The translations under genes and the position numbers were made by a program. A stretch of DNA of 64,000 bases from Bolinopsis microptera (lineage: Eukaryota; Ctenophora; Tentaculata; Lobata; Bolinopsidae): the NCBI RefSeq assembly GCF_026151205.1, contig NC_087080.1:11085837-11149836 (forward strand), written 5' to 3'. The first letter of the stretch is position 1; each line of letters opens with the position of its first letter. This document shows, piece after piece, positions 1 through 58,806 of this stretch. Under the pieces are notes generated by a model that saw only the letters and a list, made by a program, of their open reading frames with translations, was not told where the DNA came from and ran no database searches.

Positions 1-2178
1 TTGAAGTCTATGACGTAAGCCTTACCCTTTGACAATAGGCTGTTAAATGGCGAATTTGGTGTAGCCATTGCAGGTGAAGATAACCGAGGACACTTGCGGT
101 TACCGTTAATGATGGGAGATGCTGGTGAAGTCCGTTTACTGTTTGGTAGTGTAGGGCTTTCAACTCGTTGTTTTTTGGAAAGAGGCCTACTTGAAGGGCT
201 TGGTGGGGATCGTAATTTCTGTGAAGATAATCGAGTGCTTGCAAGGGAGCTTTCACTCTGTGGACTTTCACTCGGTTGAATAATAGGAGATTTAATGATG
301 TCACTTGTTGCATCATGTAACTGGAAAGGATGCAAGGATCTAAGACGTTTATATTCTCTTACTATTTGAGGGTCTGTTCTTATGCACCTTTTATCAAAAG
401 AGATGAGAAACAAACCTGCCATCGAAGTGAGTCGTGATATAGCTGTGTAGGCCATGCCCGCCTTCCAATTTATGCCAGAGAGGTCTATGTATGCATTTTG
501 CAAGGTGACTCCTTGACATTTATGGATAGTTGAGGCCCAGCACAATGTTAGTGGTAGCTGGTACCTTTTTAGCCATACATTTGTTTTCTTAACCTTTTTG
601 CACTTGAACTGTTTTTCTACAGGACTGATCGGCACTGTACCTGCTAGTGTACAATTTTGATGGCAAAATTTGTTACACAAATGCATTATTTTTCTACCAA
701 CTTTTTCCATATCAAATTTGACATATACCTTGTCTATAACTTTCACAGACACATTGTTGCTGTTAGACGTGTCTGGGGTATTTTTGAATTTGATGTGCTT
801 CACAGTTCCGCAAACACCGTTACATAACTTGTCATTCACGTCGATATTTGCACGGACCATAACACGTGCCCCAAGCCCTAAAATAATTGAGGTTGGCAGT
901 CCAGCGGTCTTGTTTATGTCGTCAGTAACATAGTCTTTGATGTTTTTTTGTCACGTCAGTCTGATTGCTATTGTTAAACTGCTCATTAGAGAACTTATCA
1001 TGGGCTATAATGTTATGAACTTTGGTGGTAGCTGTAAGGTGGTCAACACACTTCTTGTTATGCTCAGAACATTTTGCATTTGTAGAGAATAGAAGCATAC
1101 TGTCCATGAGTTGACTAACGTTTGGTAATTGTGGTATCACTCTTGACTGTAGTAAACTAACATCTTTCTCGGTATGCTGTCCAGTCCTTAGCCGATGACA
1201 AACTTCAGTAAAGGGCGCGTCCCCTTTGCTCCTAACTACGTCAGTCAGCTCAGAAAAGGTACAGAAATCTTTCCAAAAATTGACACCGAGTGCTGCAAGG
1301 CCCCTCGGATCGAATATTTTAGTTTGTTGCACGGGTGGAATTTGGAAGAGATCTCCTACAAAAATGATGTTTATTCCGCCAAAATAGTCTTGGGTGCCGG
1401 ACATCCCGAATAATTGATTTAATCTGCTGTGAATTTGATTTAAATTTGTATTGCCTATCATAGATACTTCGTCAATGATGAGGTACCTAACATGCTTAAA
1501 GATGGAGTTGAACATTTTGTCTCTTTTTGCAGAATTTAAAGACTTTTGATTAAAAAAACCACCCTCTTGGCAATCAAGTTGAAGTAACTTGTGAACAGTT
1601 TGTCCATCTATGAGGGCGGCAGCAACACCAGTGCTGGCGGAAACCAAAACAGCAGAGTTGTGGGAGCCTCTTTTAAACGTGCGGTTTATACAGTGCCTTA
1701 TAGCTGTAATGAGGAATGATTTACCAACACCACCGGCTCCACTTATGAAGTGTATAAGTTGGTTTACTTTCTTACCATCGTTCGCGTTCTGAGCATGAGT
1801 CTGAATCATAGAAAATATGTCACGTTGCTTTTCATTGAGAGAGCTGACCATACTGTTGTATTCTTGTTCGGTAATTGGTGGCTCCTCGTAAGTGAACTTG
1901 AAGTTTTCAGTATCCTCTTCACGTTTCAAATTGTTTGGTGGATGGCTTGCGAGACCACGCGGATCAAGTTTGTCATCGTGAACATTGATGGGCACGTGCG
2001 AATTTAAAATATCTTCGGTAATTTCACTTATCATAGAATCAAGGGTTGCCTCATCAATGTGTTCAAATTTTTGCATGTTTGATTTTATGACATCGTATTT
2101 TGCAACAAATGACTCCTCAACTGTAGTATAATTCCCCAATATTTGTGCCTCATCAGTCCAAGGAAAGTATATAAACAA
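1..2178 (-). CDS. Helitron Pif1-type DNA helicase domain, frameshifted, continues beyond the window
   Basis: SF1 helicase motifs are clear: Walker A GAGGVGKS (about 1720-1745), Walker B IIDEVSMI (about 1460-1483), GDLFQIPPV (about 1330-1350), and after a frameshift STIHKCQGVTL (about 500-530) and YTAISR (about 431-451). The frame breaks at a run of seven A (complement of 946-952). A single-base change there restores a smooth Pif1 reading through to position 1. This could be decay or a homopolymer sequencing error. In Helitrons Rep and helicase form one protein that nicks, unwinds and mobilises single-stranded DNA. The frame overlaps the Rep frame (2085-2178) only because of the upstream frameshift. 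The tail after motif VI (below about 350) is Ser/Pro-rich. Confidence 0.85.
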
Positions 2179-5100
2179 ATCTTGCTATAGTAGTATTTCT
2201 CCGGATCTGTTTTTCTAGATGGTGTGTGACTACGAACAATTTGAGGACCAGTCCTTTTAATCATTGTTCCCAATGTTGCGTCCTTCAACTGAATAGTTCG
2301 GTCAACATTAGATTTTGTAATATTAGAAAATTTTTCATAATTTACAGCGAATTCTTTGTAGCACATGTCCTTTAAAGAATCAGGCCTCTGTGGATAACGA
2401 TCAATGTACCCTTTCATAAATATGTCATCAGAGTCTTGAGGCATATTTTCCATGTCACGACGGAACTTTAACATACCATGGCGTTGATCAGGCATGTCTG
2501 ATGGCACAAAAATCACCTTAGGATACGAGAATTTCATGGGTAGGTCAGTTGTTCGGAATACAGACTCTTTTATGGAAACAGACCTTGCGTCAATGAAAAC
2601 ATTACCTAGTGATTTTAATTTGTCTCGAGCATTCTTGTTTTCATCATTCATAATATTATTTTTGACGTCTTTCATGGCATCGCAAACGTCCTTCTCAGTT
2701 TTTGTCGCATAATTAACTAAATAATTGACCATGTCCCACATCCCCACAATATACTGAACATCAATGTTAGATTCCAAGCAACGAAGCAACGTTTCATTGT
2801 ACGGATTTATAAGCTCCGCTCCGATTTGCCTAATATAGATGACACGACTTTTTCGGCCTTTGTTCCTGTCTGCTGATATATTGTGTAGGTCAGCATTGGT
2901 CATCTCTTTTCCGTCAGCATCTACAATGATAGTTCTTCTGGAAATTGGCCTCGGAAAGAAGAATCTGCAAGCATCTTCAGCAACACCTTTTCTGCAAGTT
3001 TTTGTATGAGAATGTGTTTGGAGTTTTACCAAAGCACTAAGCACAGGATCCTCCTCTGGGGTAGGTTTTTTAGTAGTGATGTATTTGTCTATATACTTTA
3101 TTATAGTTTCAATAGAATCCACCCCAACTATAGGTGCTCCAATACACTTTAACATCATGTGAAAATGTGGAGAGCCCCTGTCACCAAATTCATCACGGCC
3201 TGTATAAGCCTCGGTTGCGCCAAGAATTTGTTTTTTCTCGAGAAGGAACGATATTATTTTACGAATATATCTATCAAACATGCGAACTGCTATAACCGGA
3301 TCAGTACGCAAGAGCTCATGTTTGCGATGCCACGAAATGTCCGTTAGTAATTGATCGGAAGGTTCTATCCCCATCAAAGTCAATATGGCTGGAATCGAAT
3401 AAACCAAGTCATTGAAACTAAAAGTTAAGAACCATGTGAAGGTACCCAATTGACTTACCATGCCCAACGCATCGCTTTTTACCCTCTGCCAGAATGCAGG
3501 TGTGCCCTTAACGTCCTTCATGTAACGAAATGCATCAATATTGTTCAATAGTTGTTCTGTGCTTATGAGTTTATTAGTAAAAAGACCGGCTGTCAACCTA
3601 ATACCATCTGTGCTGATTTTGCGTGACTTTTGAAGGTGTATTGATGCAGCATTGTATATTGATTCACGTTCGACACATGCTTGCGTGAAAAATATGTACT
3701 CAGGATCCATGGCAAATTTTCTATCTGCAGAGTAAAGGTGATGTTTAGCATATTGTTTTCTACTTAACTTTGGGATAAGTTTGCTGGCAATCAAGGCTTG
3801 CCTATCTGAGTCATGAAAATGGCCTTTCCCCAGGGGAAACAGGTTTGGAAATGATAAAGGCTCTGCTAACGAGTCAGATAAGGCAGGTATCGGTGTCTTC
3901 CCTTGTCCTGGTGCAAAGTCCATAACTGGAACTTCGTGGATAAAATTTTGCAGAGGATCCTTATATTGAATACAATGCTCATAGGGCAGTTGGTCGTATG
4001 TACCCTCATTACATATGTTTGCTACAATTTCGTCAACCAGCGATGAAGCGATAACATGAGCATTGTCTGCAAAATGTACGTTAAAGAAGTCTTGGTGGTC
4101 ATTGTATTTGCCTTTAATCCAATCGTCATTCAGTACAGTGAAAGTATACAGTGGGTTATGCTTTTTTAACCATATTAAGACATTAATGCATTTCTTAGGG
4201 TCCACATCATCAACTAAAACAACAGTTTTGTGGCTTACATCACGCTTAATTTTAACCTTAAGAACTCCAAGATCGGGAATATTCCGAGGGAGTTTGAGAC
4301 AACTTTCCTGGGCATCAATCGGAACATTAACAACCGCGCCCCTAATACCACGTTGGCCACCAGCAGGTAAAGACCGTATTTTCATAAACTGGATACGCAT
4401 TGCTACAAGGCGGGTCTCTGTTGGATTCATGACAAGATTGTCTGGTAATGAACCAGTTTCGAGTTTCATGGGTATAGTAGCCAGTGGACAAATTTTGTTA
4501 GACTTGCGATAACTGCTACACCGTTTGCAAATCCAAGTTTGCTGTTTCCCAGATTTGGCAGATGTTTTGTCAAATTTGACAACATTTTGACGAAAATGTA
4601 AAGTATTGCAATTACGGAAGGCTGAAATAACTTCAAAATCGGGTTTGTCATGACCATCTGGGGCTTCATTAGTAGATTCTGCAGATTGTGTAAGTCTGGG
4701 AGAGGGCAGTGATGTTGTAGGAGTTGTGGCTCTGTCAGAATTTGGTAATGGGGAAGTAAACAATTTGTACGGTCGCGGTGGTGACTGAGAATCTTTTTGT
4801 CTGTCATAATTGCTTGTTTTAGTTGAGTCATGGGGTGAGGTGTAAGTCTGAGTAGATGAGAGGGGTGACAATATTGTCTGTGTGATGGTTTCAACTGATA
4901 TGTTATGCAACCCCTCCGTTTTAGTTAGCTTCCGTCGAATACGAGCTTGCTTTTGTCTATCCCTCTCTTTCTGTTTGTCTTCCTCTGTCATATTCAGTCT
5001 GTACTGTTTAGCCTTGTCTCTTTTCTTTTGTTTTTCATCCTCTGTCAGCGTCTTGTTCAGTCTATCCTGTTTGGCCTTGTCTCTTTTCTTTTGTTTTTCT

Positions 5101-8100
5101 TCCTCTGTCAGCGTCTTATTCAGTCTATCCTGTTTGTCCTTGTCTCTTTTCTTTTGTTTTTCCTCCTCTGTCAGCGTCTTTTTCAGTCTATCCTGTTTGG
5201 CCTTGTCTCTTTTCTTTTGTTTTTCTTTCTCTGTCAGCGTCTTATTCAGTTTATCCTGTTTGTCCTTGTCTCTTTTCTTTTGTTTTTCCTCCTCTGTCAG
5301 CGTCTTATTCAGTCTTTTCTGTTTCTGCCTATCTCTCTCCTTCTGTTTGTCCTCCTCTGTAAGATTCAGTCTGTACTGTTTAGCCTTGTCCCTTTGCTTT
5401 TGTTTTTCCTCCTCCGTCAGCGTCTTTTTCAGTCTCCTCTGTTTTTCCTTGTCTCTTTTATTTTGTTTTTCCTCCTCTGTTAGCGGCTTATTCAGTCTAA
5501 TCCGTTGTAGCCTATCTCTCTCCTTCTGTTTGTCCTCCTGTGTAAAATTGAGCCTTCTATGTTTTGACTTGTCTCTTCTCTGATGTTTATACTCGTCTGT
5601 CTGAGTGTCATTGTACGGGTCAAAAAAGGGAACATGCTCTTGTGAGATAGGGGTGTCGTCGATAAAGTCGTCGAAGATGCAGTCAGATGTATCACTGTCA
5701 ATGTCTAGGGTATCGTCAGAGGAGTGGGCAGCTTCATCATCAACAAATCGATTTTTAGCCCCACCACCCCACTGCTGATATGAATTACAAAAACTGTGTA
5801 ACTCAGTAACATTAGGTAAAGTTGGGTGATCTATCTTTGAAGATAGAAGGGGAAAAGCTGTTGAGGTGATAGAATGGCCCAGCTGTGCAGGCTGGTGCTG
5901 GGCTGACAAAAATAACATTATGTTACGGCAAGGTTGTGGATTATGTACAAGTGCTGGTAGTGCAAATCCATCGGATGATGAAAGAATTAATTTGATTGAC
6001 GCTGGTTGCAAAGATTCTTGTAACGGTGGAAGTGGTTGGGATAATCCTGGTAAAGGAAAATGTTGTAATGGTGGCAGTGACGGCGGATTGGATTGTTGTA
6101 GTGATGTCAGTGGGAGGGATAATACTGGTGGAAAAGATTGTTCTAAAGTAGGTAGCGAGAAGGATGGTACTGGTGAAGATTCTCGTAGATTGAAAACGGT
6201 TGGGAGTGACACTGGCGGTGAAGATTCTTCTGATGGTGTAAGTAGCGGTAACAATACTGGCGGAGAAGAATGTTCAGCAGGCAACAGCGAAGGGGATGAC
6301 AGTGGCAGTGAAGGTTGTCCAGATGTTGGAGAAGACGGAGACAATGCTGGTGGAGAAGAATGTTCTTCAGTTATTAGTGAAGGTAATGACAGTGCCAGTG
6401 AAGGTTGTTCAGATATAGGAGAACAGGGGGACGATACTGGTGGAGAAGAATGTTCTGCAGGCAGCATTGAAGGGGATAACAGTACAAGTGAAGGTTGTTC
6501 AGATGTATGGGAATAGGGGGACAATGCTGGTGGATAAGAATGTTCTTCAGTTATTAGTGAAGGGAATGACAGTAGAAGTGAAGGTTGCTCAGATATAGGA
6601 GAACAGGGGGACGATACTGGTGGAGAAAAATGTTCTGCAGGCAGCATTGAAGGGGATGACAGTACAAGTGAAGGTTGTTCAGATGTATGAGAATAGGGGG
6701 ACAATGCTGGTGGAGAAGAATGTTCTTCAGTTATTAGTGAAGGGGATGACAGTGGCAGTGAAGGTTGTTCAGATATAGGAGAACAGGGGGACGAGGCTGA
6801 TGGAGAAGAATGTTGTGACGGCGGCAGTGACAAATCTAAATTGCAACTATTAGTGGGGACAAAAGGAGCTGTAGAAACGGACGATGATGATGACACAAGT
6901 ATGCCATTGTTCTTATGAAGGGTGGTGAGTTGTGAAGAAAGAGGGCGGGATGACGACACCCGTTCATTCTTATCAAGGGTGCTGGGCTGTGAAGTAGATC
7001 TTGGCTTGAGCGTTCTGAATGTGAGACTGAAACGGTAGCCAAGGGAATGACGAGAGAAACTTCCGGGCGCAATACGATGAAAAAAAGATACCTGTGTCTC
7101 AGGATGCATGACAAATAAAGAATTGGAGAGAAGCTGCTGACTATATGAGGGGCGCTCCTTTTTACACGCAGCAAAATCCATGTTACGTGTAGCCCCAATG
7201 GAGAGCGTAGCAATTTTGGCAGACTTGTCCAAGTGTCGTTCATCATCCTTGTGATAAGGTAAGATGACAGAGGGGTCTTCGTAGAAATTAACCAAGATGC
7301 TGTTGAAGTTGGATGAAAGCTTAATATTGACCATGAACAAAACTGTTTGCAGTATAGGATAGGATCGAATAGGGATAGGACTAAGATGCATAGTGGCCCT
7401 GTTATAAATATATTTATGCTCACCGAAAAGAAGGACCTTTGAAGAATTGATTCCCTGTCTAACAAACATACCCTGTGCAACCTTTGCTAGAAGCAGTTTC
7501 TCAACCTCCTGTACAATACGGGCAGATAGGAAATTCGTGTAATAACTTAACCTTTTACGAAGCCAATCTGGGCACTTGGACAAAATTGATGACGTAGATG
7601 CAATAGGGTCAGGTGAAGCAGATGGAGGAGCATTAGTAGCATCTGGTCGGGCAGTTGGAGCAGGAAGTGATGAAGCACAAGGAGGGTCTGCAGGAGAAGG
7701 AGCTGATACAGTGGTAGGTGGAGCAGATGTAGCAGGAGGCAGATCAGATGGAGGAGCATTGGTAGCATCTGGTCGGGCAGTTGGAGCAGGAAGTGATGAA
7801 GGGGTAGCAGGAACAGGGTTAGGTATAGGAGTAGTTGGAGCTGGTTCAAGAAGTGATGGAGCAGAATCAGTAGGGGTAGGTGGAGCTGGTAGAGTAGATG
7901 TTTGAATAACAGCTATAGCCGCAGAAGCAGTTGCCGATGCAGATGCCGAAACAGCAGGATTAGTGGTCAAATGAGTGGAATCATCGTATTGATGAGCTGT
8001 TAGTGGAACAGTGACTGGTATGGATGTATGAGAACCCACAGATGGAAGAGGACTTCGAGTAGATTGAGCAACGGTAGTATCTGAATTGAGATGGTAATGG

Positions 8101-8954
8101 CGAGTGGTCCGATCAACAGATAAACTGTGAGATGTTACAGAAGCGTATGTCCTAAGTTGGACTTGGACGGGTTGAGGAAAGTACTGTGAATGGGATGCTT
8201 CCTCCTTAGAATCAGTAACAGGTTGAAGAGTTAATGAAGCAATAGGAGCAGGTGCAGGGTCTGGTGGAGGTTTAGATGACCCCGTGTAAGTCGAGTCCCA
8301 GGAATTGTTTACATAATTGGGAAAAGAAGAAAGGGGCATAACCGTTGGTTGGAAACGATCCTCGACATAGCAGAGTAAATCATGTGGCAATGAGGAGATG
8401 CCATGTGAGTAAGCGTGAATATTTGCTTTCACGATTTTCTTCAACATGACATTGTCACGATAGCTAAGGTGAAGCTTATCCTTAGCCAGATAGACCTTAG
8501 GATCTGTTCTAGTTGTGTCCCAGGGGGATGAAATTACAGTACATCCACGCCTAAACGAAAGACCATGTATTTCCTTATTGAAAGCAGCTAACTTGTCCAT
8601 TAAGGTAGGGCTAATATCAAGTCTAGGTATTATGATGTTGACAATAACATGAGCACGTTTGAATTTATTGTTAACAGCATCAATGAATTCATTGAAAGCA
8701 GCTGCAAACTGTTGTTGATTACAAGCTGAGCGACCACTGATGTTATTGGTGCCCAGCAAAACTTAAACGATATCAGCCTGTAAATCTACAACTGCCCGTC
8801 TGAGATTGTACACACAGTCAGTAATCTGCGAGATGGCCTTGCCTCGACATGCAAGGACTTCTAAACTTTTGTATGAATCCACAAACCTCTCTTTCTCTGT
8901 TTCATTGGTACTATCCCCTACATACTTTGGTATCGAATCTCCAATAACAACGAC
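2085..8954 (-). CDS. Helitron protein, main part: SGNH esterase, AlkB-like dioxygenase, repeats, HUH Rep (nonsense codon and frameshift)
   Basis: Domains in order. SGNH hydrolase (8954 to about 8410): GDS at the start, GTNN after the break, and DKLHLS as the Asp-His pair. AlkB-like 2-oxoglutarate/Fe(II) oxygenase (about 7575-7000): HKD near 7250, FFHRI near 7080, and RYRFSLTFR near 7030. Ser/Pro repeats (6840-6230), then Lys/Glu/Arg repeats (5590-4960). CxxC-type segment near 4500-4560 and a region resembling Helitron-associated DUF6570. Helitron-type Rep: PHFHM at about 3163-3177 (HUH) and YIDKY at about 3085-3100 (two catalytic tyrosines). An in-frame TAA at 8763-8765 splits the SGNH domain, and the first codon after it on this frame is not ATG. 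The Rep frame is lost near 2165 at the conserved YYYS...FPW motif and continues in the helicase frame. The long N-terminal additions are unusual for a Helitron. Confidence 0.85.
4960..5590 (-). repeat. 63-bp coding tandem repeat (21-residue Lys/Glu/Arg helix repeat)
   Basis: About ten units of 63 bp encode variants of LNKTLTEEEKQKKRDKAKQD within the Helitron protein. The charged heptad-like pattern predicts a long helix. Length stays a multiple of three and the sense frame stays open. The long plus-strand open frames over this stretch are antisense shadows. Confidence 0.85.
6230..6830 (-). repeat. 90-bp coding tandem repeat (30-residue Ser/Pro-rich repeat)
   Basis: About six units of 90 bp alternate two subtypes and encode a Ser/Pro/Glu-rich linker (for example LITEEHSSPPALSP) between the AlkB-like and Rep parts of the Helitron protein. 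Divergence between units is small, so the array probably expanded by unequal exchange or slippage. Confidence 0.8.
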
Positions 8955-9093
8955 CTGATAAATAGGGAATATTAGTGATAAGTGCATCTATCAAATTTGG
9001 GGTTAATTAAACATCTTAAATGGAATTGTTAACAATTGCATTGAAAGCGAATACTTGAAATAAAGGAGCACAGAAGATTATAAAGAAATTAAC

Positions 9094-9302
9094 CTTCTTG
9101 TCAGTAAACACGGTTCTATCATTAGTTTGCACAAATGATGTGGTTGGGCCTGGATTTAACTCAATATCTCCAGAGAGCAATAACAGCAGAGTGCACACAC
9201 CTGACCACAGATTGCATTGTGGCAGAATTGAATTGCGAACAATAAACAATTCCTGGGGTGTGCACAAAACAATCCAGGTATCACACTCAAAGAGCGTTAA
9301 AC
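9094..9302 (-). CDS. Helitron gene exon 2 carrying a 2A ribosome-skipping motif
   Basis: The frame contains LLLLLSGDIELNPGP at about 9145-9189. It matches the 2A consensus D(V/I)ExNPGP, which makes ribosomes skip the Gly-Pro bond. The leucine-rich run before it resembles 2A peptides of sea urchin and other non-LTR elements, where the same stretch can also act as a signal sequence. The acceptor is a strong pyrimidine tract ending CCTAG/G at 9303. The donor is GACAAGAAG/GTTAAT at 9094, phase 0, joining after a 139 bp intron to the GDS block of the SGNH domain at 8954. No ATG lies close upstream in the exon, so it needs the upstream exon. Confidence 0.7.
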
Positions 9303-9483
9303 CTAGGAGAGAAACAGTATTATTATCAATTTATAAAACCCTGGTTAAATATTAGTATGATATTGTTTGTAATAAGTGTTTGTAAATAAAATTTAATAAA
9401 AGTGTTTAATAATATTATTCTTTTATAAATTATGGCGTGTTTCATTTATACCGTTGCCTAGATAAAATTGTGAAATTCATCAC

Positions 9484-9973
9484 CTGTAGTAGAGAGCATG
9501 CGGATGTCCACGAAAGCAGCCGACAAGAGTACGGATGTGACTAACGCCGCACTCAACCTGTTTGACACGAAGAACAGCCTCCTAAATCTGAAACCTTTAC
9601 AAACACCACCCCCGTTGTGAGAGAAATACACGGAGTGATGCAGAAACAGTATCCAAATATACTGTATGTTATTAACATAACAGTGAATGTTTGTAATCAC
9701 TACAGCGGATAATTGAGCGAGGGGGGTTAAAACAGCCATAACAAAATCAACCACACAGGACCAAACAATAGTTAAATCATGGTAACATTCATTTTCAATT
9801 AAATTGCCAGGGCCAGGTCCAAAATCATAAGAAAAAGCGAGAATAGCAATTAGTAATAACTTGAATCTCATATCTTTAATCAAAATGTAATTTATAACGT
9901 TTGTGTGAAAATATCGAGGGAAAAGAGTTAGTTCCGTGTCCCGGTCGCATTTATAGCTGAATCGTGTAACCAT
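9484..9973 (-). CDS. Helitron gene exon 1: hydrophobic N-terminal protein upstream of the 2A motif
   Basis: Open frame from an ATG at 9973. A second in-frame ATG at 9871 begins a clear signal-peptide-like stretch (MRFKLLLIAILAFS), so 9871 may be the true start. Further hydrophobic segments follow (around VVDFVMAVLTPLAQLSAVVI). The exon can end at 9484 before a good donor (ACAG/GTGATG). Its leftover phase fits the acceptor at 9303 of the 2A exon exactly, with a 181 bp intron. I recognise no domain. If translated, the 2A motif in the next exon would release this part as a separate product of about 180-215 residues. The exon assignment is inferred from splice sites and phase only. Confidence 0.45.
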
Positions 9974-10214
9974 GGGGAGCGCATTTTACACTTAGTAGAA
10001 TACAAAGCAAATATTGCCACCAGCGACAACAATGCGCGCAGGCACGTACGGTCGCGCTCACGCTCGCAGGCACGGTCGCAAAGCTACCATATCCAAAAAA
10101 ACCTCGTTCGCTAACCCTTGTCCTTGACTCTTTTGTGCCTTCGGCACTTTGAGTCATGGATCGGGAAAAAATTATAATTGTAGAATTCTGAAAACCCAAT
10201 TTTTTTTTTTTTTT
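9974..10214. other. Spacer upstream of the Helitron gene
   Basis: Short GC-rich stretch (about 10030-10080). A hairpin with a TTCG loop (GTGCCTTCGGCAC near 10136) lies between GACTC/GAGTC arms. A 16-base T run covers 10201-10216. The Helitron promoter and 5' end should lie here, but I found no decisive 5' TC terminus. Confidence 0.4.
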
Positions 10215-12859: not shown

Positions 12860-13501
12860 CTAAGCTCCAGCGGATTTAAAAAGGATGTGGTTACTATCGA
12901 GGGTGTTCATACCCCCATAACGCTCAAGGGTTTTCAATTGGGTCTGGTAGAACCCCTCTCTAGCTTCCATGGCCTTTTCCCTATCTGCTTGACTTATTTC
13001 AGGTTTAAATTCAAGAGCGTCCACTATAATAACAGAAAGGTGCGTACTAAGTGAAGAGTTATATAAGGCTACTGAACTAAAATCTAAATCATGATCAATA
13101 TCTAAAAAGTGATTTACTAACTTACAACTTCTGATACCTTTCTTAATGTGGCTCTTATGATTAGAAAATCTCTTAGGGAGATTAGAAGTAGTATATCCTA
13201 CATACGACTGTTTACAAGTTCTACACTCCATTAAATAAATAAGGTTATTACTCTGACAAGTTATATATTTAGTAATAGGGAAAACTTGTTTAGAATGGTG
13301 ACTACTAAATTTGGAACAAGGGGACAGGAAACTTTGCTTACAAACATAGCATTTTCCACAGGCATGGCACCCTGCGTTGTCAGCCTTCCGAACAGCCGGC
13401 AATATTGCAGCGTCTGGTTCAAGAAATTGACTAGCAGTGGCTTCTCCATCTCTATCACTGCTTACAGTTCCACTAGCACGATACTTATTGTGTACAAGCA
13501 T
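12860..13501 (-). pseudogene. Penelope GIY-YIG endonuclease domain
   Basis: A frame of about 210 residues has a zinc-binding cluster (CHACGKCYVCKQS) followed by NLIYLMECRTCKQSYVGYT, the GIY-YIG motif in its Penelope form, then R.s.H...i and the C-terminal RE..yq...L tail. This domain nicks the target DNA for reverse transcription. It is separated from the RT by frameshifts, so I treat it as part of a dead copy, although the domain itself is intact. Confidence 0.85.
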
Positions 13502-13660
13502 GCCACCGATAGTTTGATTCTTTCGGTGACTTACAAATACACTGTCAGCACGTACCTACTAGCTTCTTCAAGGCTGGATCGAGATTAAGAAGGTGCTTAT
13601 ACTTGTGAATAATGCTCCCCATGTTGGGAAGTGCTGGATTCTGATCCATCACCATGGGTA

Positions 13661-14400
13661 TTAGACAAGTAGTCGTCTCATCCTTATTTTTAGGGGCATA
13701 TACAAGTTTTTCCTATTGGTTATATCACTAAATTTGTTGAAAGCATCGTCTACAATACTAGAATGGTAACCACGGGCTACAAGGTAACCAGTATATACCT
13801 CCCTTTGCTCTAAGAAATTAGTGTCTTCACTATTGTTCTGCCTCACTCGCCTCGCCACACCATAGGGTATGTTTTTGAGAACATGGCTCCTATGACATGA
13901 GGTGGGGATGAGATAGCAGTGGGTGTCACTGGGCTTAGAGTAAAGTTTGGTATGAATAACATCGCCAACAGCATAGACATAGGTGTCTAAAAACTCAACA
14001 CCATCCTTAGAGTAGTCGTAAGTAAACACAAGGTCCGGATGGATACTATTGAGCCATTCCATAAATTGTAGAAGCTCCTCAACAGTACCAGGCCAGGCCA
14101 TGTATATATCGTCACGCAACCTACCCCAGAATGCTGGTCTGTGTGGCGGGCCATGTTCTAAATCTCTTTCATTAACTAAAATATCGATCTTATCCATTGC
14201 ACAATCTGCATACTCACATGAGTTCTTAGGACCCATCGCCGCTCCACGCTCCTGACGGTATGTTATACCGTTGAACGAAGCTATGTTGTAATCAAGAGTG
14301 ATTTCTAGAGCACTAATAATGCATTCTGTACTGAACAATTGATCATAACTACTTCTTTCATTCAGGTGCTTGGTGCATTGTTGGATCCCCATATCCCTGC
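13661..14400 (-). pseudogene. Penelope reverse transcriptase, C-terminal two thirds
   Basis: Contains RQERGAAMGPKNSCEYAD (RT motif 4 region), RDDIYMAW (the catalytic Asp pair), then LDTYVY, TKLYSKPSDTHCYL and the SCHRSHVLKNIPYG.ARR block typical of Penelope RTs. The first N-terminal motifs are absent. The frame is open for about 245 residues, then shifts near 13665. Sequence of the thumb/linker type continues in other frames to about 13500, so the copy is not functional. Antisense frames here are shadows. Confidence 0.85.
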
Positions 14401-14419
14401 TATATATATAGATACTCAC

Positions 14420-14630
14420 CGATTGTTGTAGTAAGCTAAAAAATCTCCAAATGTCCACTGATTGTCGACAAATAGTTGATTGAGCTGTTGATATCTGTAT
14501 AGAGCCACCCGCGAGATTTGTTCCGATGATAGACTTCGGCTTTCTTCGAGCTGAGAAAAGCTGTTGGCTACTTGATTTTCTTCGACAGACAACACCTCAT
14601 CGGGAGTAGGCTCTAAAGTGTTTCGCATTT
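14420..14630 (-). pseudogene. DNA polymerase B middle exon, downstream of the TTAA element
   Basis: Open frame from the TTAA junction: MRNTLEPTPDEVL ... WTFGDFLAYYNNR, matching the PolB segment just before DV.PF. The donor CG/GTGAGT at 14420 splits the Arg codon and fits the acceptor at 10336. Rejoining to 15734 after removing the TTAA element leaves the frame off by one, so one extra small indel exists there. Confidence 0.75.
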
Positions 14631-15733: not shown

Positions 15734-17527
15734 CGAAAGAAAAATGCAGTGTAAGGTGGAAACACAGTCGACGTCAGCTTCTCGAGGTTGTCAAAGTATT
15801 CGTACGGAAAGAAACTTTTTGGGAGTGTCGCACCGTATGCTCTAACGAACTGGTCGTATGTTGACCCAGCTGCCATATAGTTTGTTACATCCAGAAACAA
15901 AAAGTTCTCGCTGGATATGGCCGAATATGACGCTCCCCGTTTTATTATGTAATTTATGTCCTCAACCTCGAGGAGAACTGAGAAAAGTTGAGTTTTCATA
16001 GTGGGGATATCAAATTTCTGACCGCAAAACGATAGCAGCGGCAACTGCTGTAGATATTTCTCAAATCGATCCACCAATTTTTCGTCATCAATTTGGTGGA
16101 TAGCCTCTAAGTAGTCTGCAAATCCTTCTCTCATTAGCTCATGAGAAGCATCAGATATTTGAACAGACTGAGATACTAGCCAAAAGATGTTTCGCGTTAA
16201 ACTCAACTCTAGCTGAATTGTCTACGCCAGTATCTCGAATTAGAGCACATTCTATATCAAAACATGCTCTGTACGGATAATAGCGTAGTTCAGTAGAAAT
16301 ATCAACGCCAAAATCTTCTAGCTTATCGAAGACTGTTCTGTTTGGTTCAAAAGCACCCCCAACGTAAACATCTCTTGTAGCGGCGTCGCAGGTAGAGGAG
16401 TGTCGTTGCTGACGAAACATGGTTGGGAATGTTTTGTTACACTTGCCGCAGCGAAAGCTACGTGAAAATTTATTCAAGTCTTTGATATAACTGAAATGAT
16501 TGTTATATAGATTCAGATGCATAACATTATCATTTTTAAGGGTTCTATAAAGACTTTCTGTGATACCAGTCTCGCTTTGAGTAAAAACGTAAATGCCGAC
16601 ATCAAAAATTCGAGAAGCATCTTCCAGTTCATTGAGTGAAATTCCAGTAAAATCTGAAGCTAAAATACTCATCCCTCTCAAATAGCAATCAAAAAGCTCT
16701 TTAGCCTTTCGCTCTAAAGCGGTGATTTTTGCGCCTTGAAACAGCGCAAGACATCGAAAAAAGCATAGATTGTCATTATACGGGGTACCCCGATAAGATA
16801 CAAGACCAATTAAACCTTTATTGTTTTTAAGATAGGTCGGTAATTGAGTTGACGCACCAATGGGACACCTCAATACTCTGGATACGAAAAAACTAACATT
16901 GGTTATACGAACAAATGAAAACTTTGAGCTTGGGTAATTAACATGATTCAAAAGATCTAGTTCGTCAATTTTGTGGGTCAGTGTACTCAAGTCGTTAAGG
17001 TCACCCACAAAATGTGGATCACTGAATAGAAGCTGGTTGTTCTGTGAAGAATAATAAAAATGCAAGGACTGATCCTCGTTGTTTTTCAAGATGAACGCAA
17101 GTGAAATTTTCAGTTTAAATGCTGTTTTTTGGTCTCTGAACACAGAGAGCAAATGTTCCTTGATATCTTCGATTGATAAATGATGCAACTGAAAATTGTA
17201 TACAGCAGTTAGAGACCTAACTGTCCTTGACGGTTTGATGTATTTCTTGTGGCGAATATACAAGTCTCTATAGTCTTCTTCTATCACAGATTCCGGCACT
17301 ACAAATACATCATTGAACCCCCACGCAGTACCAATGTGACGCGATTCTTTATTATGTTGTGTTCCATGTTCAATCTGCATTAACAATGGGTATTTCACGT
17401 GGCAAATACTACATTGAATTATTTTACAGCTACGAGAAGCTTGATGATTCTGCATAGCTGACGGGGTGTAGATAGAAATACTTGCATTACACTTGGTGCA
17501 TGACTCCCTTCGACGTTTTGACATCAT
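15734..17527 (-). pseudogene. Polinton-type DNA polymerase B, N-terminal half with OTU-like region and exonuclease
   Basis: Starts MM at 17527 with two Cys-pair zinc motifs (CTKCN, CSICH). An OTU-like segment follows (DNLCFFRCLAL and, later, NNHFSYIKDLNKF), then a zinc finger (CGKCNKTFPTMFRQQRHSSTC). The 3'-5' exonuclease motifs are FDIECA (ExoI), FCGQKFDIP (ExoII) and YMAAGSTYDQF (ExoIII region). These are the marks of protein-primed PolB of Polinton/Maverick type. A one-base frameshift near 16155 splits it into two frames, and the TTAA element cuts it at 15733. The polymerase palm is missing from the window. Other Polinton genes (integrase, capsid, ATPase) were not seen nearby. Confidence 0.8.
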
Positions 17528-17604
17528 TTGACGAGCGGAGAGGTTGTCGTGGTAACGTTATAAATTGAACAACTGTACAATTAGAACATACAAAGAGGTT
17601 TTGG

Positions 17605-51185: not shown

Positions 51186-52195
51186 TAAACTTCATAATAC
51201 GTTTAATTATAGCTATACTTGTAGTTAGTTTACTTTTTATGTTATCTAGTTGGGGTTCCCAGGATAGTTAATGGTCTATGATAACACCAAGGAATCTCAC
51301 TTTATCTACTCGTGTAAGCGTGTTGCCTGATAACGTGAGTGAGTTCTCAGAGCCATATTCACGAGCACGTGCACAGGACGAGTACCGGCCAGGTCTGAAT
51401 AACATGTAGACCGATTTGCTTTGGTTAATGTGCAGCAAGTTAGATTCCATATAGTCATTTACAGATTCAAGTACTTTATTAGCATTCAAATAGGCTTCTT
51501 GTTCAGTTTTTCCAGCAACAAATATGTTCGTGTCATCTGCAAACAGTATGAAGTGTCCAAGTTTGCTAGAGTTGGTAATGTCATTAATGTAGAGTAAGAA
51601 GAGGAGAGGGCCTAGAACTGATCCCTGTGGTACCCCATATTCAATTTTGCAGTGATCAGAGTGTGTATTTTGGAAATCAACATACTGCTGTCGGTTACAC
51701 AAATAGCTTTCAATTAGGTCAAGACAGGGCCCTCTTATGCCATAGTGTTCAAGTTTGACAAGTAATTTTCTGTGGTCGATTGTGTCAAACGCTTTGCTTA
51801 AGTCAATGAATATGCCAATTACATGATTCTTACTTTCTAGGTTTTTAATAATGTGCTCAATGGAGTAATTGATGGCATGTGCCGTTGAGTGGTTGGATCT
51901 GAATCCAAACTGTTTATCGTATATGACCATATGTGAAGTAAAGAAGCTATATAGTCGGCAGTAAATTACTTTTTCAAATATCTTACCAAAGATAGGTAGA
52001 ATGGATATAGGCCTGTAGTTATCAAACAGATGTGGGTCTCCTTTCTTAAATACGGGGGTGACCTTACCTATTTTGAGAATATTTGGAAATAGACCCAGCT
52101 TCATGAATGAGTTTAGGAAACCAGCTAGGTGCTTAGAGATTGCAAATATATACTCGACAACAAATATCTGTCGGCACATCGACGATTCAGTCGCC
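51186..52195 (-). pseudogene. LINE-1m reverse transcriptase core
   Basis: Begins in the RT palm: KIGKVTPVFKKGD, NYRPISILPIFGKIFEK, FIDLSKAFDTIDH, EYGVPQGSVLGPLLFLLY and LFADDTN (catalytic FADD). FLGVIID follows, then a TAA at 51268-51270. In-frame sequence continues (LSWEPQLDNIKSKL) to the Helitron junction at 51186. The first ~60 codons of the open frame upstream of 52195 are antisense to the other LINE's ORF1 and do not belong here. Confidence 0.9.
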
Positions 52196-52329
52196 GAAAC
52201 AAAAATCAAATGTTTGCTTTTTCGTTTCGGGAACTGTTTGAACTCAAGAAAGATAAGCTTTGCACCCATCCATGAAGACCATTCACCTACAAAAATGACT
52301 GAAATGTCCCTAGAATCCAACTCAGCCTA

Positions 52330-53066: not shown

Positions 53067-53767
53067 CCCACATCCAGAAACACACCATCTTGCCAGGCAG
53101 CCTGGGAGGAAATAAGAGGAAATAGAGGAAATTTTTGAGAAAATGAGGAAATTTTTGAGAAGTTACTCCTAAATTTCAAAATATTTTTTTGGAATAAAGA
53201 CAAATTAATTGAGGAAATTTTCGATTGTATAAAAATCAAAGAGGAACATCCTGCCAGTTTTGGAACACAGTGAAATATTCTGATTGGAGAATGCAGATTG
53301 CTGTTGTGAAGTTACCAAATTAACGCGAGTACTTGATTCTTTTCAATCCCAGTTTATTGCTGTCCTACAAATTTCTTTAATGCCAAATGTCGTCTAAAAC
53401 ACCCTATTTCGCAAAAAATTTCCGGAGGGCTTCGCCCCCTAGCCCCCGCCAAGGGGCTCCGCCAAGGGGCTCTGCCAAGGGGCTCTGCCAAGGGGCTCTG
53501 CCAAGGGGCTCTGCCAAGGGGCTCCGCCCCTGGACCCCGTTGGGGGCTGCGCCCCCAGACCCCTGTTGGCTTGCTTCGCTCGCCAACAGCCCCCCCAAAG
53601 AAAAACCTGACTACGTCCCTGCTCGTGAATTGGTCCAGTGTTAAAATGTAAAAATTTGCGAAACGAGCAGGCCACAGAAAAAAGGCAAACTTGCAAGCGA
53701 ATCGAGCGGGCAACAGAATTTAGAAAAAACGCATCTGGGAGGAAATATAAAACTTTCTGGATGTGGG
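53067..53767. mobile_element. 701-bp TIR element with 8-bp duplication in LINE-2p
   Basis: Ends CCCACATCCAGAAA / TTTCTGGATGTGGG and duplication ACCAAGCT (53059-53066, 53768-53775). It carries an AGGGGCTCTGCCA-type GC-rich tandem (about 53450-53520) and no transposase. 8-bp duplication fits hAT or P-like elements. The Pro/Gly/Leu-rich frames on both strands are products of the tandem. Confidence 0.85.
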
Positions 53768-55636
53768 ACCAAGCTCCCATTTATCATTGATAACCAAAGA
53801 ATAGTTGATAGAAGAGCAATTGCTAATGGATTCAATGCTTGGTTTGTCTCTATTGCACCAAAGCTGAATGAGACACTGAATAATCTATCTAATGGCCTGC
53901 CTATATTACCCATGAAAACTTTCTATGACTTCCTGAACCCAAGAAATGAAAAAAATATTAGGCTAGAAGATTGCTCCTCGAACGAAATAATGAAAATCAT
54001 AAGCGAGTTCGAAAATGGTAAAGCCAGTGACATTCCCATAAGTGTAGTAAAAAAGTCATCTCATGTAATTGCACCTGTATTATCGAATTACTTCAATATC
54101 CTCATGACCCAAGTTATATTTCCTGATGTCCTAAAAACTGGTAAAATCACACCTGTATTATATAAGAAAGGTAACCCAGAAGAAATAGAGAACTACCGTC
54201 CTATCTCCACGCTGTCCGTCTTTGGTAAGATCTTTGAAAAGCTCATATATTCTAGAATATACGGATTTGTAAGCTCCCAGGGAGTTATATCGAAGATACA
54301 GTTTGGATTTAGGAAATCTCACTCTACATCTCATGCAGTTAATTACTCTGTAGATTTAATTACGAAATCTCTTAAACTTAAGAATCATGTTTTAGGAATA
54401 TTCATTGACCTAGGCAAAGCTTTTGACACCATCGACCATTCAACACTTCTTATAAAATTAGAGGGATGTGGAGTGAGAGGAGTTGCAAATAACCTCATAA
54501 AAAGCTACTTGACAAACAGGCAACAATACACCGAAGTTGTAGGAGAAAAATCAGATACCCTATCTATTCAATTTGGTGTCCCGCAGGGTTCAATTCTTGG
54601 ACCTCTCCTATTTCTTCTTTATATGAACGACATCACAAACAGTTCTAAACTAGGATCATTTGTTACCTTTGCTGATGATACCAATATATTTTTTGTCGGA
54701 AAAACAAAACGTGAGGCATATGAACGAGGAAATGAGCGTTTGTCATCATTACAGTATTATATGAGAGCGAATAAGTTACATATAAACATGTCCAAGTGCT
54801 GCTACATACACTTCAAACCCACCATGGCAGGTTCTAAGTCAGAGATTTTATCACACCCTGAAGTTGCACTAACCATAGACAACTTTCCAATCAAAAAGGT
54901 TTCATCCGCAAAATTTCTGGGTGTTATAATTGACGAGAACCTATCATGGGAAGATCACATTAAAGCTCTTAAGCAAACTCTAAATCATTCCACATCCACT
55001 TTATGTAGACTTCGCTGCTCCCTTCCAGAATTTCTACATCAACAATTATACTATACCCTGTTCGAATCACATCTTTCTTACTGTATATCTGTATGGGGTG
55101 GGGCAGCTAAGCAACGTATAAGCTCAATATTTACTGCTCAGAAGTACTGTCTCAGAGTACTATTTGGTGATAGGCTGGCGTACCTTGATAAGTTTAAGAC
55201 TTGTGCACGTACTAGGCCTATAGGACACCAGAAACTTGACCAAAAATTTTTCATAAAAGAGCACACCAAACCTATATTCAAGCATAATAATATTCTAGCT
55301 ATACAAAATCTCTATACATACCACAGTTACCTGGAGCTCTACAAGATAATGAAATTCCGTGCCCCAATATCCTTACATGAGGGTTACACATGTTCGTCAA
55401 GGAAACCCTGCCTTCTAATCTGTCAGGCAGACCCACCTGACAACCACAACACTAGATCAACCAAAATTTTAAACATTTTAACCCCAAAGTTCAGAATGAC
55501 TGACTTTACTACTAGTGTAATGTGTTTGCGAGGAAAGCTAAAACGTGCGCTATTAGCCAATCAACATAACCACGCCCTGCTTGATTGGACCATAAAAGAT
55601 TTTGACTGCACAAATGTTATTTTCCAAACATTATAA
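53768..55636 (+). pseudogene. LINE-2p reverse transcriptase (nearly intact)
   Basis: After the insertion the linker resumes (IIDNQRIVDRRAIANGFN), and from ATG 53912 the frame is open for 574 residues. Blocks: KTGKITPVLYKKGN, NYRPISTLSVFGKIFEKL, FIDLGKAFDTIDH, QFGVPQGSILGPLLFLLY, TFADDTN (catalytic FADD), FLGVIIDENLSWEDHI, and the C-terminal SYCISVWGGAAKQRI and HTKPIFKHNNILAIQNLYT blocks, then TAA at 55636. The RT itself shows no obvious damage. The element is dead because the endonuclease is lost and its 5' part is broken. Confidence 0.88.
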
Positions 55637-57880: not shown

Positions 57881-58806
57881 GACACCATCTTGAAATCCTT
57901 AAAATGTGGATAAATCATGAATTCCAAATTAATATAATTTACAGTACACACCAGTGTATGTCTACTAAAGAATACTCTTACTAGATTCAGGATATTTCAG
58001 CGTGGCACCTTCTTGTTTGTTTATTTTTTAGAACATGTTCCCAATCTTGTATTGGAAAATGGCCCAACTCAATACTGAGTGTGAATAAAGGTGGTACCTG
58101 CAAGGATATTCATTGAACACTTAGAGTTCTGTAAATCTGCAGTTACAATTTTTCTGGAATATTTCTACTAATTCTAATTCTGATTGATATTATATCTCAA
58201 CCCCTATGGCCTACGCCCTACATCCTTCCAAATTTCAAATTTTTGCACAATGTAACAAAGAGAGTGATATGTTCATTATATTCCAGATAACACTTAAAAC
58301 ATAAAATCGTTGTAATTTTATTAAATGTAGATTTCCTGGTTGCTTCAGTCCGCTTTAAAGTCGGAAATAAAAAGTATGTAACGTCTTTAATATGTCTTTA
58401 AAGTTAGATAAACCGATTAAACAAGGCTAAAACGAGCAAGCACACGTACGGCATGTTATGCTCACTCCATGACTATTCATAACTTTGGTTGTGATCGATA
58501 TTTTTTGATGAAGTAATAAGTATTGTTCAGGAAATCCGAATACTCACAAAGTTATTGTCATTGTCTAATAAAATCCATAATTTTTACAGTACAGCTCAGC
58601 TAGATCAAGATAATGAAGAGAAATTAAAACATAACTGATTTTTAAAATTTCCTCGAACAAATCTTTCGACTAGTAGGATGGTTCCAAATTTTAATCTCAG
58701 TTTCCTGTTTTCTATGTAAACTTAATACCTTTTCAAAACAGATTTTCCAACAATTCTAAAACTTGAATTTTGAGTAACCTAATGTTTTTCAACAATTTCA
58801 GTAGTC
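57881..58806. promoter_or_regulatory. Region upstream of CDC73
   Basis: No coding sequence. A branch/acceptor-like ATTTCAG at about 58801 lies six bases before the CDC73 start codon, so a 5' UTR intron is likely and the promoter may lie several hundred bases upstream. No clear TATA box can be assigned. Confidence 0.4.

Follow-up and report, generated by a model that had tools for sequence, protein, structure and literature searches.

An element of the Helentron/Helitron2 group and its domain order

The window, that is the whole stretch of 64,000 nucleotides of Bolinopsis microptera DNA that was analysed, holds the 5' two thirds of one Helentron/Helitron2-type element of 15,582 bp (~15.6 kb) on the minus strand. 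The initial annotation had set the limit of the element at position 9973; the true 5' end lies at 10173, and the 3' end, located by a DNA search, lies outside the window at G000:C9:11080428, 5.4 kb beyond window base 1. Seven copies were compared: the window copy (W), a sister copy of the same family (A), and five copies of a second family (B–F). The features of W are the following.

1..10173, minus strand: 5' part of the element (sharp end of W/A similarity; 3' end from the DNA search)
10158..10173, minus strand: 5' terminus AATTTTTTCCCGATCC and 5' subterminal inverted repeat TTTCCCGATCC, with the repeat partner 43 nt from the 3' end
9484..9871, minus strand: predicted exon 1 with a hydrophobic signal-like N-terminus (MRFKLLLIAILAF...), open in W and A, similar exon in D
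9483-9303 and 9093-8955, minus strand: predicted introns (GT/AG junctions in W and A)
9094..9302, minus strand: predicted exon 2, bearing the 2A motif (GT/AG junctions in W and A)
9145..9174, minus strand: 2A (StopGo) motif SGDIELNPGP
8373..8954, minus strand: SGNH hydrolase domain, broken by a stop in W (GDS/GTNN/DxxH motifs; end set from copy A)
6963..7610, minus strand: AlkB-type 2OG-Fe(II) oxygenase (Pfam core 7415-7014; RFSLTFR 7034-7014)
HKD 7253-7245 and the H of FFHRI, minus strand: AlkB iron ligands (motif)
4885..5543, minus strand: K/R-rich repeats of 21 aa (63 nt) each (window frames)
4131..4466, minus strand: DUF6570 (PF20209; Pfam)
3150..3752, minus strand: Helitron_like_N (PF14214; Pfam), with the HUH motif 3176-3153 inside and YIDKY next at 3095-3081
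1219..1839, minus strand: Pif1-type helicase core (PF05970; Pfam)
3..950, minus strand: helicase 2B region (PF21530, weak; Pfam) and tail
from the window edge, nearly all outside the window, minus strand: C-terminal Cys (C...HW) domain (copy comparison)

Sharp ends enclosing all the modules were common to the seven copies, and the flanks differed among them. All seven have an exact pair of subterminal inverted repeats of 11–12 bp, placed 5–7 nt from the 5' end as set here and 43–44 nt from the 3' end, and the 3' end of copies W and A also has the palindrome GAAATGCGGCCGCATTTC, so that both terminal features of the Helentron/Helitron2 group are present. In copies B–F, inspection of the 3' end by eye showed no more than an imperfect stem. 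Also by eye, the flanks of six copies showed no repeat, and copy A had GTTTAACTG at both sides.

The named motifs were correctly described in the initial annotation as collinear on one strand. They follow each other along the minus strand from SGDIELNPGP (9174-9145) through those of SGNH (VVVIGDS 8954-8934, VLLGTNN 8762-8742, DKLHLS 8480-8463), AlkB (LPYHKDDE 7262-7239, FFHRI 7085-7071, RFSLTFR 7034-7014) and Rep (GSPHFHMM 3176-3153, YIDKY 3095-3081) to the helicase motif GAGGVGKS (1740-1717), and chance is excluded as the source of this set. The profile searches that had been proposed as a check gave, for the window frames, 65.1 bits for AlkB (PF13532, cut-off 31.2), 84.2 for PF14214, 43.6 for PF20209 and 90.8 for PIF1 (PF05970). 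With SGNH (PF13472) the outcome of this check was divided: copy A scored 47 bits (cut-off 32.9), copy B 25.6, under the cut-off, and the window copy was not reported by Pfam, the GDS, GTNN and DxxH blocks being found in all three.

The fusion of SGNH and AlkB ahead of the Rep-helicase, for which the initial annotation had proposed a search for intact copies of the same domain order, is borne out by single frames in copies A–D. In copy A one frame of 3226 aa contains SGNH, AlkB, K/R repeats, DUF6570, HUH Rep, Pif1 and the C-terminal Cys domain, and the frames of the second family have 3366 (B), 3321 (C) and 3388 aa (D); from SGNH to the C-terminus the frame is thus unbroken in four of the seven copies. 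The window copy is not intact. Its frame 2085-8762 (2225 aa) links half of SGNH to Rep, but compared with copy A it has a stop within SGNH just above 8762, a small deletion ahead of DUF6570, and frame breaks inside 2085-2184 and 922-950, and the C-terminal cysteine domain, being outside the window, had escaped the initial annotation.

The HUH Rep with a catalytic Tyr motif that marks Helitrons is present, and Rep is fused to a Pif1-type SF1 helicase, the two sharing a frame in copies A–D and both being detected by HMM in A and B. The element is best explained as an autonomous-type rolling-circle transposon. A profile search found neither PF03372 nor PF14529 in the frames of A and B, and because the C-terminal AP endonuclease of strict Helentrons was not found, the element is placed in the wider Helentron/Helitron2 group only.

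Upstream of SGNH, the predicted exons 1 and 2 together encode 199 aa and run in phase into exon 3. The in-phase introns of the initial annotation are matched by GT/AG junctions in W and A, and in W, A and D the leader, the 2A motif and SGNH can be joined in one frame, W meeting its stop later, in SGNH. In the second family, frame breaks interrupt exon 1 and exon 2 of B and E; a donor pattern for exon 2 is seen in B, D, E and F, and an acceptor for exon 3 in B–E. The motif D(V/I)ExNPGP is present in all seven copies and in the related protein P0008, with SGDVETNPGP at the matching place in B–F and in P0008. The element thus offers a DNA transposon with a 2A leader that is probably spliced; no paper pairing '2A-like' with 'Helitron', in that wording, was found in the open-access literature.

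The AlkB domain and its relatives in LINEs

The solved structures nearest to the AlkB domain by sequence were ALKBH3 (E 6e-14) and ALKBH2 (7e-10). ALKBH2/ALKBH3 chains also led the fold search, with a best E of 1e-8, a TM of about 0.5 and an rmsd near 6 from a model of medium quality (pLDDT 64.7). The HxD...H iron ligands and the R-x5-R motif (H, D, H and both R) were invariant in 7/7 and 6/6 rows of two alignments. Judged from these comparisons, the domain retains the iron/2OG residues and resembles ALKBH3/ALKBH2.

AlkB is under purifying selection, with dN/dS of 0.09–0.33: 0.09 in A/W, 0.16 in A/B, and 0.14, 0.16, 0.33 and 0.27 for B against C, D, E and F. Linkers 1 and 2 had values of 0.40–0.80 where these could be computed, and both linkers and the tail together 0.40–0.88, which is nearly free evolution. 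Cells with short misaligned overlaps (Rep in B/F, helicase in A/W) were dropped. SGNH is also under purifying selection, but in A/W its dN/dS is 0.56 on 9 changes and no lower than that of the linkers in the same pair. SGNH and the C-terminal cysteine domain are probably additional accessory enzymes whose targets are host lipid or ubiquitin. The reading of the C-terminal domain, a candidate papain-like cysteine peptidase/DUB, as a VTD deubiquitinase is not favoured: the VTD Asp-x-His motif, as given in passages of PMC9741609, was absent at the HW of the domain in copy A. No VTD- or tegument-named match occurred among the 50 listed, an absence that is not telling.

The genome includes at least 151 AlkB matches, and the eight non-Helitron AlkB families examined were all LINE first ORFs. 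In these the order is AlkB then SGNH, the reverse of the Helitron order; similar first-ORF-like proteins were also present in public sets. The three top-scoring AlkB matches (L030–L032), labelled putatively host-like because they fall outside the repeated ORF sizes, formed a group of their own in both trees, and the Helitron AlkBs branched among the LINE AlkBs, apart from them. That the element took its AlkB directly from a host ALKBH gene is not favoured, the position of the root and the long branches making the evidence moderate. The Helitron AlkB looks LINE-derived rather than separately captured as a host demethylase. Of the earlier proposal that LINE-like modules and a demethylase had been acquired, the link to LINEs stands, both domains being present in LINE first ORFs of the same genome, but the demethylase appears to belong to the LINE-like part and the domain order is swapped.

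The second AlkB tree was made after removal of the near-duplicates L035, L036, L037, L041, L047 and L049 and addition of P0007 and P0011. The AU test went against one common clade of all Helitron AlkBs (p 2.8e-6), a result hinging on the long-branch P0011; without P0011 and with P0005 such a clade was not rejected (p 0.32). In the trees AlkB has also been exchanged between Helitron families. A trade of accessory domains between two classes of transposable elements is documented here.

SGNH, AlkB and Rep-helicase occurred together in five of the 21 Rep-helicase relatives found, all five from other assemblies or species. No AlkB was listed for the remaining 16, some of which are possibly truncated proteins. 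In a third Helitron lineage (L054, C6) SGNH scored 30.9 bits, below the cut-off, and AlkB was not detected up to the Rep domain; the stretch examined of L055 (C4) had neither SGNH nor AlkB. AlkB is dispensable in general, as these 16 relatives and the third lineage are without a detected AlkB. P0008 has 2A joined straight to Rep-helicase without SGNH-AlkB, and its start resembles the exon 1 segment. Alternative splicing into the GGG/FIDDEA hinge would be a possible explanation of P0008; inspection by eye showed no conserved acceptor ahead of the hinge in W, A, B, C, D or E, and F had no match.

Comparison with known systems

Among the matches listed from the open-access literature (PMC), none describing AlkB as part of a Helitron or of a LINE was found. 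Helentrons/Helitron2, as described in passages of PMC4067079, share with the present element the HUH Rep and Pif1, subterminal inverted repeats (near the 5' end and ~43 nt from the 3' end) and the 3' palindrome, and members of the group are known with captured domains, accessory peptidases among them; DUB-bearing Helentrons carry VTD or OTU domains (parts of PMC9741609). The present element differs from Helentrons in that no C-terminal AP endonuclease was found and in the N-terminal fusion of SGNH and AlkB behind a 2A site.

Fungal Helitrons with TET/JBP genes are likewise rolling-circle transposons that code for a 2OG-Fe(II) dioxygenase, and there too transfer has occurred from one TE lineage to another, but the enzyme is of the TET/JBP family, and the word AlkB is absent from the main text of PMC12730594. 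The texim genes of fish are an SGNH hydrolase travelling with a Helitron, but they are separate multi-exon genes described as captured, no fusion to Rep-helicase being described in the passages covered of PMC4021074. An AlkB encoded by a transposable element is reported from orchid Ty3/Gypsy, a plant LTR retrotransposon in which it is of the ALKBH5 type and forms an extra ORF (sections of PMC9289625). The AlkB-SGNH LINEs of the same genome have the same two domains, and differ in being retrotransposons with a separate EN-RT ORF2. Sea-urchin NLR genes resemble the predicted N-terminus in having a hydrophobic leader with 2A, which suggests dual targeting; they are host immune genes with a short leader, unlike the predicted leader and 2A of about 180 aa in the Helitron (parts of PMC4981915).

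Proposed function and alternatives

We read the element as encoding a Helentron/Helitron2 polyprotein whose AlkB dealkylates the element's own single-stranded nucleic acid, with a probability of roughly 0.55. The spliced mRNA would encode the signal-like leader, the 2A site and then the SGNH-AlkB-(K/R)-DUF6570-HUH Rep-Pif1-cysteine domain polyprotein, from which the 2A site may free the leader. AlkB would be an active ALKBH3-like dealkylase, tethered to the Rep-helicase and stripping methyl or alkyl groups (1-methyladenine/3-methylcytosine type) from single-stranded DNA or RNA of the element itself. Its most direct substrate would be the displaced ssDNA strand, which cleaning would make copyable and insertable. 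In favour of this reading stand the single frames, the common ends, the kinship to ALKBH3/ALKBH2 with invariant H, D and R residues, the low AlkB dN/dS and the five relatives with the same domains; against it stand the 16 relatives and the third lineage without a detected AlkB, the medium quality of the AlkB model, the arrangement of P0008 and the SGNH dN/dS in A/W. The element sets a putative ALKBH3-like dealkylase beside an ssDNA-making Rep, in copies with intact frames and with related domains in abundant LINEs, and raises the question of whether transposons must clean or unmark their single-stranded intermediates or transcripts.

The same pair of AlkB and SGNH in two TE classes suggests sharing to get round a chemical barrier. 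A tentative and rather doubtful extension is that the host holds mobile DNA in check through methylation or alkylation of single-stranded nucleic acid, and that for this reason LINEs and rolling-circle transposons of the ctenophore lineage, two unrelated classes, have come to use, and to trade, a common AlkB-SGNH toolkit. Helitrons would have drawn AlkBs repeatedly from those of LINEs and would still swap them between families. On that view AlkB would serve animal transposons generally as an anti-restriction enzyme, a counterpart of TET/JBP in those of fungi.

The ssDNA substrate is opposed by the LINEs, which bear related AlkBs though their intermediate is RNA/cDNA; an RNA substrate fits equally or better for this reason. 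It is possible, if short of an even chance, that AlkB instead demethylates the element's own transcript (m6A/m1A/m3C), so that the mRNA evades decay or host recognition. The presence of the domain type in the first ORFs of all eight LINE families examined agrees with this, RNA being the substrate common to both TE classes, and ALKBH3, the best sequence match here, also acts on RNA. The orchid Gypsy AlkB is reported, in passages of PMC9289625, to bind RNA and to demethylate in vitro, but it is of the ALKBH5 type and the closest kin here are ALKBH3/ALKBH2, in the Helitron fused to a DNA-processing enzyme.

That AlkB erases a host silencing mark on the element DNA, as proposed for fungal TET/JBP, is unlikely. 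TET/JBP genes in fungal Helitron1 and Helitron2 give a precedent (parts of PMC12730594). In principle 6mA is a possible substrate of AlkB-type enzymes. AlkB families are not known to erase 5mC, however, and no result here shows a DNA mark on the elements.

Even less probable is SGNH-AlkB as a non-catalytic passenger or structural module brought by recombination with LINEs. Helitrons capture genes often, SGNH genes travel with fish Helitrons (passages of PMC4021074) and the linkers and tail evolve almost freely, but AlkB has a low dN/dS and catalytic residues that do not vary, which argues against it, as does the module's retention both in two families of this genome and in other assemblies.

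An artefact, whether a Helitron with a LINE ORF1 nested inside it or two neighbours read as one, can be dismissed as very improbable: the window copy by itself is broken at several places, but SGNH and AlkB in a separate element, the outcome named beforehand as contrary to a fusion, was not what the copies showed, with intact single frames in four other copies, common ends in all seven, a domain order opposite to that of the LINEs and the same domain set in five proteins of other assemblies.

Structure and boundaries of the element

The fusion from SGNH to the C-terminus forms a single frame in four of the seven copies compared, and the copy in the window (W) is decayed, since the frames of copies A–D are whole and that of W is interrupted. 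In W, half of the SGNH domain together with the Rep domain lies within a single open frame of 2225 aa (8762–2085, minus strand), and Pif1 is covered by two further frames on the minus strand reaching base 3. The domains 2OG-FeII_Oxy_2, DUF6570, Helitron_like_N and PIF1 were all above the Pfam cut-off in these frames. The genome searched consisted of 264.65 Mb in 232 contigs. Copy A, the sister of W located elsewhere on the same contig, showed 91–95% identity to W over three long alignments and has a single frame of 3226 aa. In the second family the frames were 3366 aa (B), 3321 aa (C) and 3388 aa (D) long, and copies E and F were split into two and three frames, respectively, when frames of at least 180 aa were listed.

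Two predicted exons upstream of SGNH encode 199 aa and end in frame at the SGNH exon. The predicted segment includes a hydrophobic leader and the motif SGDIELNPGP, and SGDVETNPGP is present at the corresponding position in B–F. In copy D, a similar leader–2A structure could be joined in frame by six junction pairs that keep the frame, of which we prefer the one with the donor GTGAGT and the acceptor TATAG. Both the second donor pattern and the second acceptor were present in B, D and E, with the donor pattern alone seen in F and the acceptor alone in C; the frame is broken in exon 1 of B and in exon 2 of E. In P0008, a related protein from another data set, the leader–2A part runs straight into the acidic/KR region and the Rep-helicase, without SGNH–AlkB, and its element would thus either lack this module or skip it.

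In pairwise alignments (W with A; B with C, D, E and F) the element start ATTTTTTCC and the end CTTGTT were identical in all seven copies and the flanks differed, the element lengths being 13.3–16.1 kb. All seven also have an exact inverted repeat of 11–12 bp situated 5–7 nt from the 5' end and 43–44 nt from the 3' end, and W and A have a perfect palindrome at the 3' end before TTGTT. These terminal repeats and the 3' palindrome resemble those described for Helentrons (subterminal repeats of 12–15 bp, 2–4 nt from the 5' and 38–60 nt from the 3' terminus, and a 3' palindrome; PMC4067079). No endonuclease was found in the frames of A or B, and the element is therefore placed in the Helentron/Helitron2 group rather than among strict Helentrons. 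Searching with each of the two 3' ends gave 528 and 445 first-look candidates, 40 of which were scored in each case; 23 and 36 of those scored, respectively, matched solely in the last 50–60 nt and may be short non-autonomous copies. At copy A (C9:15865461–15881517), GTTTAACTG is present directly on both sides of the element, which is unexpected as target duplication is not predicted for this class.

Distribution and origin of the AlkB module

Among 7988 candidates, the SGNH–AlkB region as query identified at least four proteins, of which at least three have the complete set of domains. The Rep-helicase region identified 21 proteins at E ≤ 1e-30, some of which may represent the same species in another assembly. 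Both PF13472 (SGNH) and PF13532 (AlkB) were listed in five of these (P0002, P0003, P0004, P0007 and P0011), and other relatives list OTU, endonuclease or PF04843. In a third Helitron lineage of the same genome (L054, C6:8443600–8449200), the Rep frame begins with SGNH and has a GGG hinge similar to that of the present element, and AlkB was not found before Rep in the stretch read. L054, with SGNH but no AlkB detected before Rep, suggests that SGNH was present before AlkB, which then entered the linker connecting SGNH to the GGG hinge, the latter recognized by eye.

At least 151 PF13532 matches were detected in the genome, many in repeated ORF sizes, with 150 of 587 candidates scored. Eight non-Helitron AlkB ORF families were picked for differing ORF size, and in all eight a frame encoding EN, RT or both lies downstream of the AlkB frame, identifying them as LINE first ORFs. 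In family H this downstream frame matched PHD and, slightly under the cut-off, EN, and nothing else; in L052, EN was the sole domain found within the stretch retrieved. Behind AlkB, five of the eight families have an SGNH match that passes E 1e-3, and in the other three SGNH was recognized by eye; in family K, AlkB was below cut-off and its assignment rests on alignment. AlkB is thus expanded in retrotransposons of this 265-Mb animal genome, which merits separate study. First-ORF-like AlkB–SGNH proteins are also common in public protein sets: at least 66 matched family LINE_G at E ≤ 1e-8, and among the matches listed 63 of 66 had PF13532 and 44 of 66 both PF13532 and an SGNH-type domain (by our count).

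In the AlkB tree, the Helitron sequences clustered with LINE_G and the protein P0005 (99/100) within the TE clade, separate from three host-like genes. P0011 is a distant Helitron with another AlkB type, and the AU test rejected a single Helitron AlkB clade (p-value 2.8e-6), although P0011 has a long branch; with P0011 excluded and P0005 included, the clade was not rejected (p-value 0.32). The AlkB module has been exchanged between Helitron families, because identity, dS and the affinities of P0004 in AlkB depart from those in the other domains. A and B are 73% identical in AlkB, 40% in SGNH and 48–56% in Rep/helicase, and AlkB is the only folded domain between them with unsaturated synonymous sites (dS 1.0; linker 1 1.1). 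In SGNH and Rep-helicase P0004 is far nearer B than A, whereas its residues 471–680 are somewhat nearer A than B in seven of seven blocks of 30 and nearer A than C in six, with one tie; over the whole AlkB domain it is 86% identical to A vs 79% to B. P0005 (2249 aa) combines the Helitron-type AlkB and a domain related to the C-terminal Cys domain with a long region without Pfam match, and this pair of domains is thus also present in another protein or element.

Published papers include precedents for SGNH with fish Helitrons (PMC4021074), TET/JBP in fungal Helitrons (PMC12730594), AlkB in orchid Gypsy elements (PMC9289625), DUBs in Helentrons (PMC9741609) and 2A in LINEs (PMC4981915). Among the open-access papers listed as matches, titles and the beginnings of abstracts included no description of AlkB in a Helitron or LINE.

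Conservation and proposed function

The AlkB residues H, D, H and both R were invariant across seven aligned sequences, four LINE types among them. The closest solved relatives by sequence were human ALKBH3 (E 6e-14) and ALKBH2 (7e-10), and ALKBH2/3 were also closest in a fold search with a medium-quality model. In comparisons of B with C, D, E and F, dN/dS (Nei-Gojobori) was 0.14–0.33 in AlkB and 0.21–0.35 in SGNH, and 0.40–0.55 in linker 1 and 0.56–0.80 in linker 2. Between A and W it was 0.09 in AlkB, 0.56 in SGNH (few changes), 0.45 in linker 1 and 0.49 in linker 2, and between A and B 0.16 in AlkB and 0.49 in linker 1, with SGNH, Rep-N, Rep, helicase and C-terminus saturated. Rep and Rep-N had values from 0 to 0.26 and the helicase 0.13 (B/C), 0.06 (B/D) and 0.53 (B/E; three changes); the C-terminus had zero amino-acid changes in B/C and B/D.

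A displaced single strand is the means by which Helitrons transpose, and single strands are where 1-methyladenine and 3-methylcytosine, both removed by ALKBH3-type enzymes, mainly form. An AlkB fused to the Rep-helicase would meet the displaced strand immediately, and action on displaced single-stranded DNA is the reading we prefer; RNA is an almost equal candidate substrate because of the LINE data. For SGNH in TEs, a role in membrane passage has been proposed (PMC6431247). Weak fold similarity, together with the analogy of the OTU/VTD domains in Helentrons (PMC9741609), makes a deubiquitinase-like peptidase a possible identity for the C-terminal domain.

Other features in the window

12860–14596, minus strand: GIY-YIG domain (PF01541; Pfam) and an upstream frame, near the Helitron 5' end
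16151–17557, minus strand: 468-aa frame with a zinc-finger-like start and an FDIE motif, by eye; no Pfam match
51268–52326, minus strand: reverse transcriptase frame (PF00078; Pfam)
53645–55636, plus strand: reverse transcriptase frame (PF00078; Pfam)
58783–59904, plus strand: CDC73 N-terminal domain (PF16050; Pfam, 318 bits), a conserved host gene in one long frame

By eye, the frame upstream of GIY-YIG, which had no Pfam match, looks like a Penelope-like element reverse transcriptase, and the FDIE motif of the 468-aa frame resembles the exonuclease of family B DNA polymerases.
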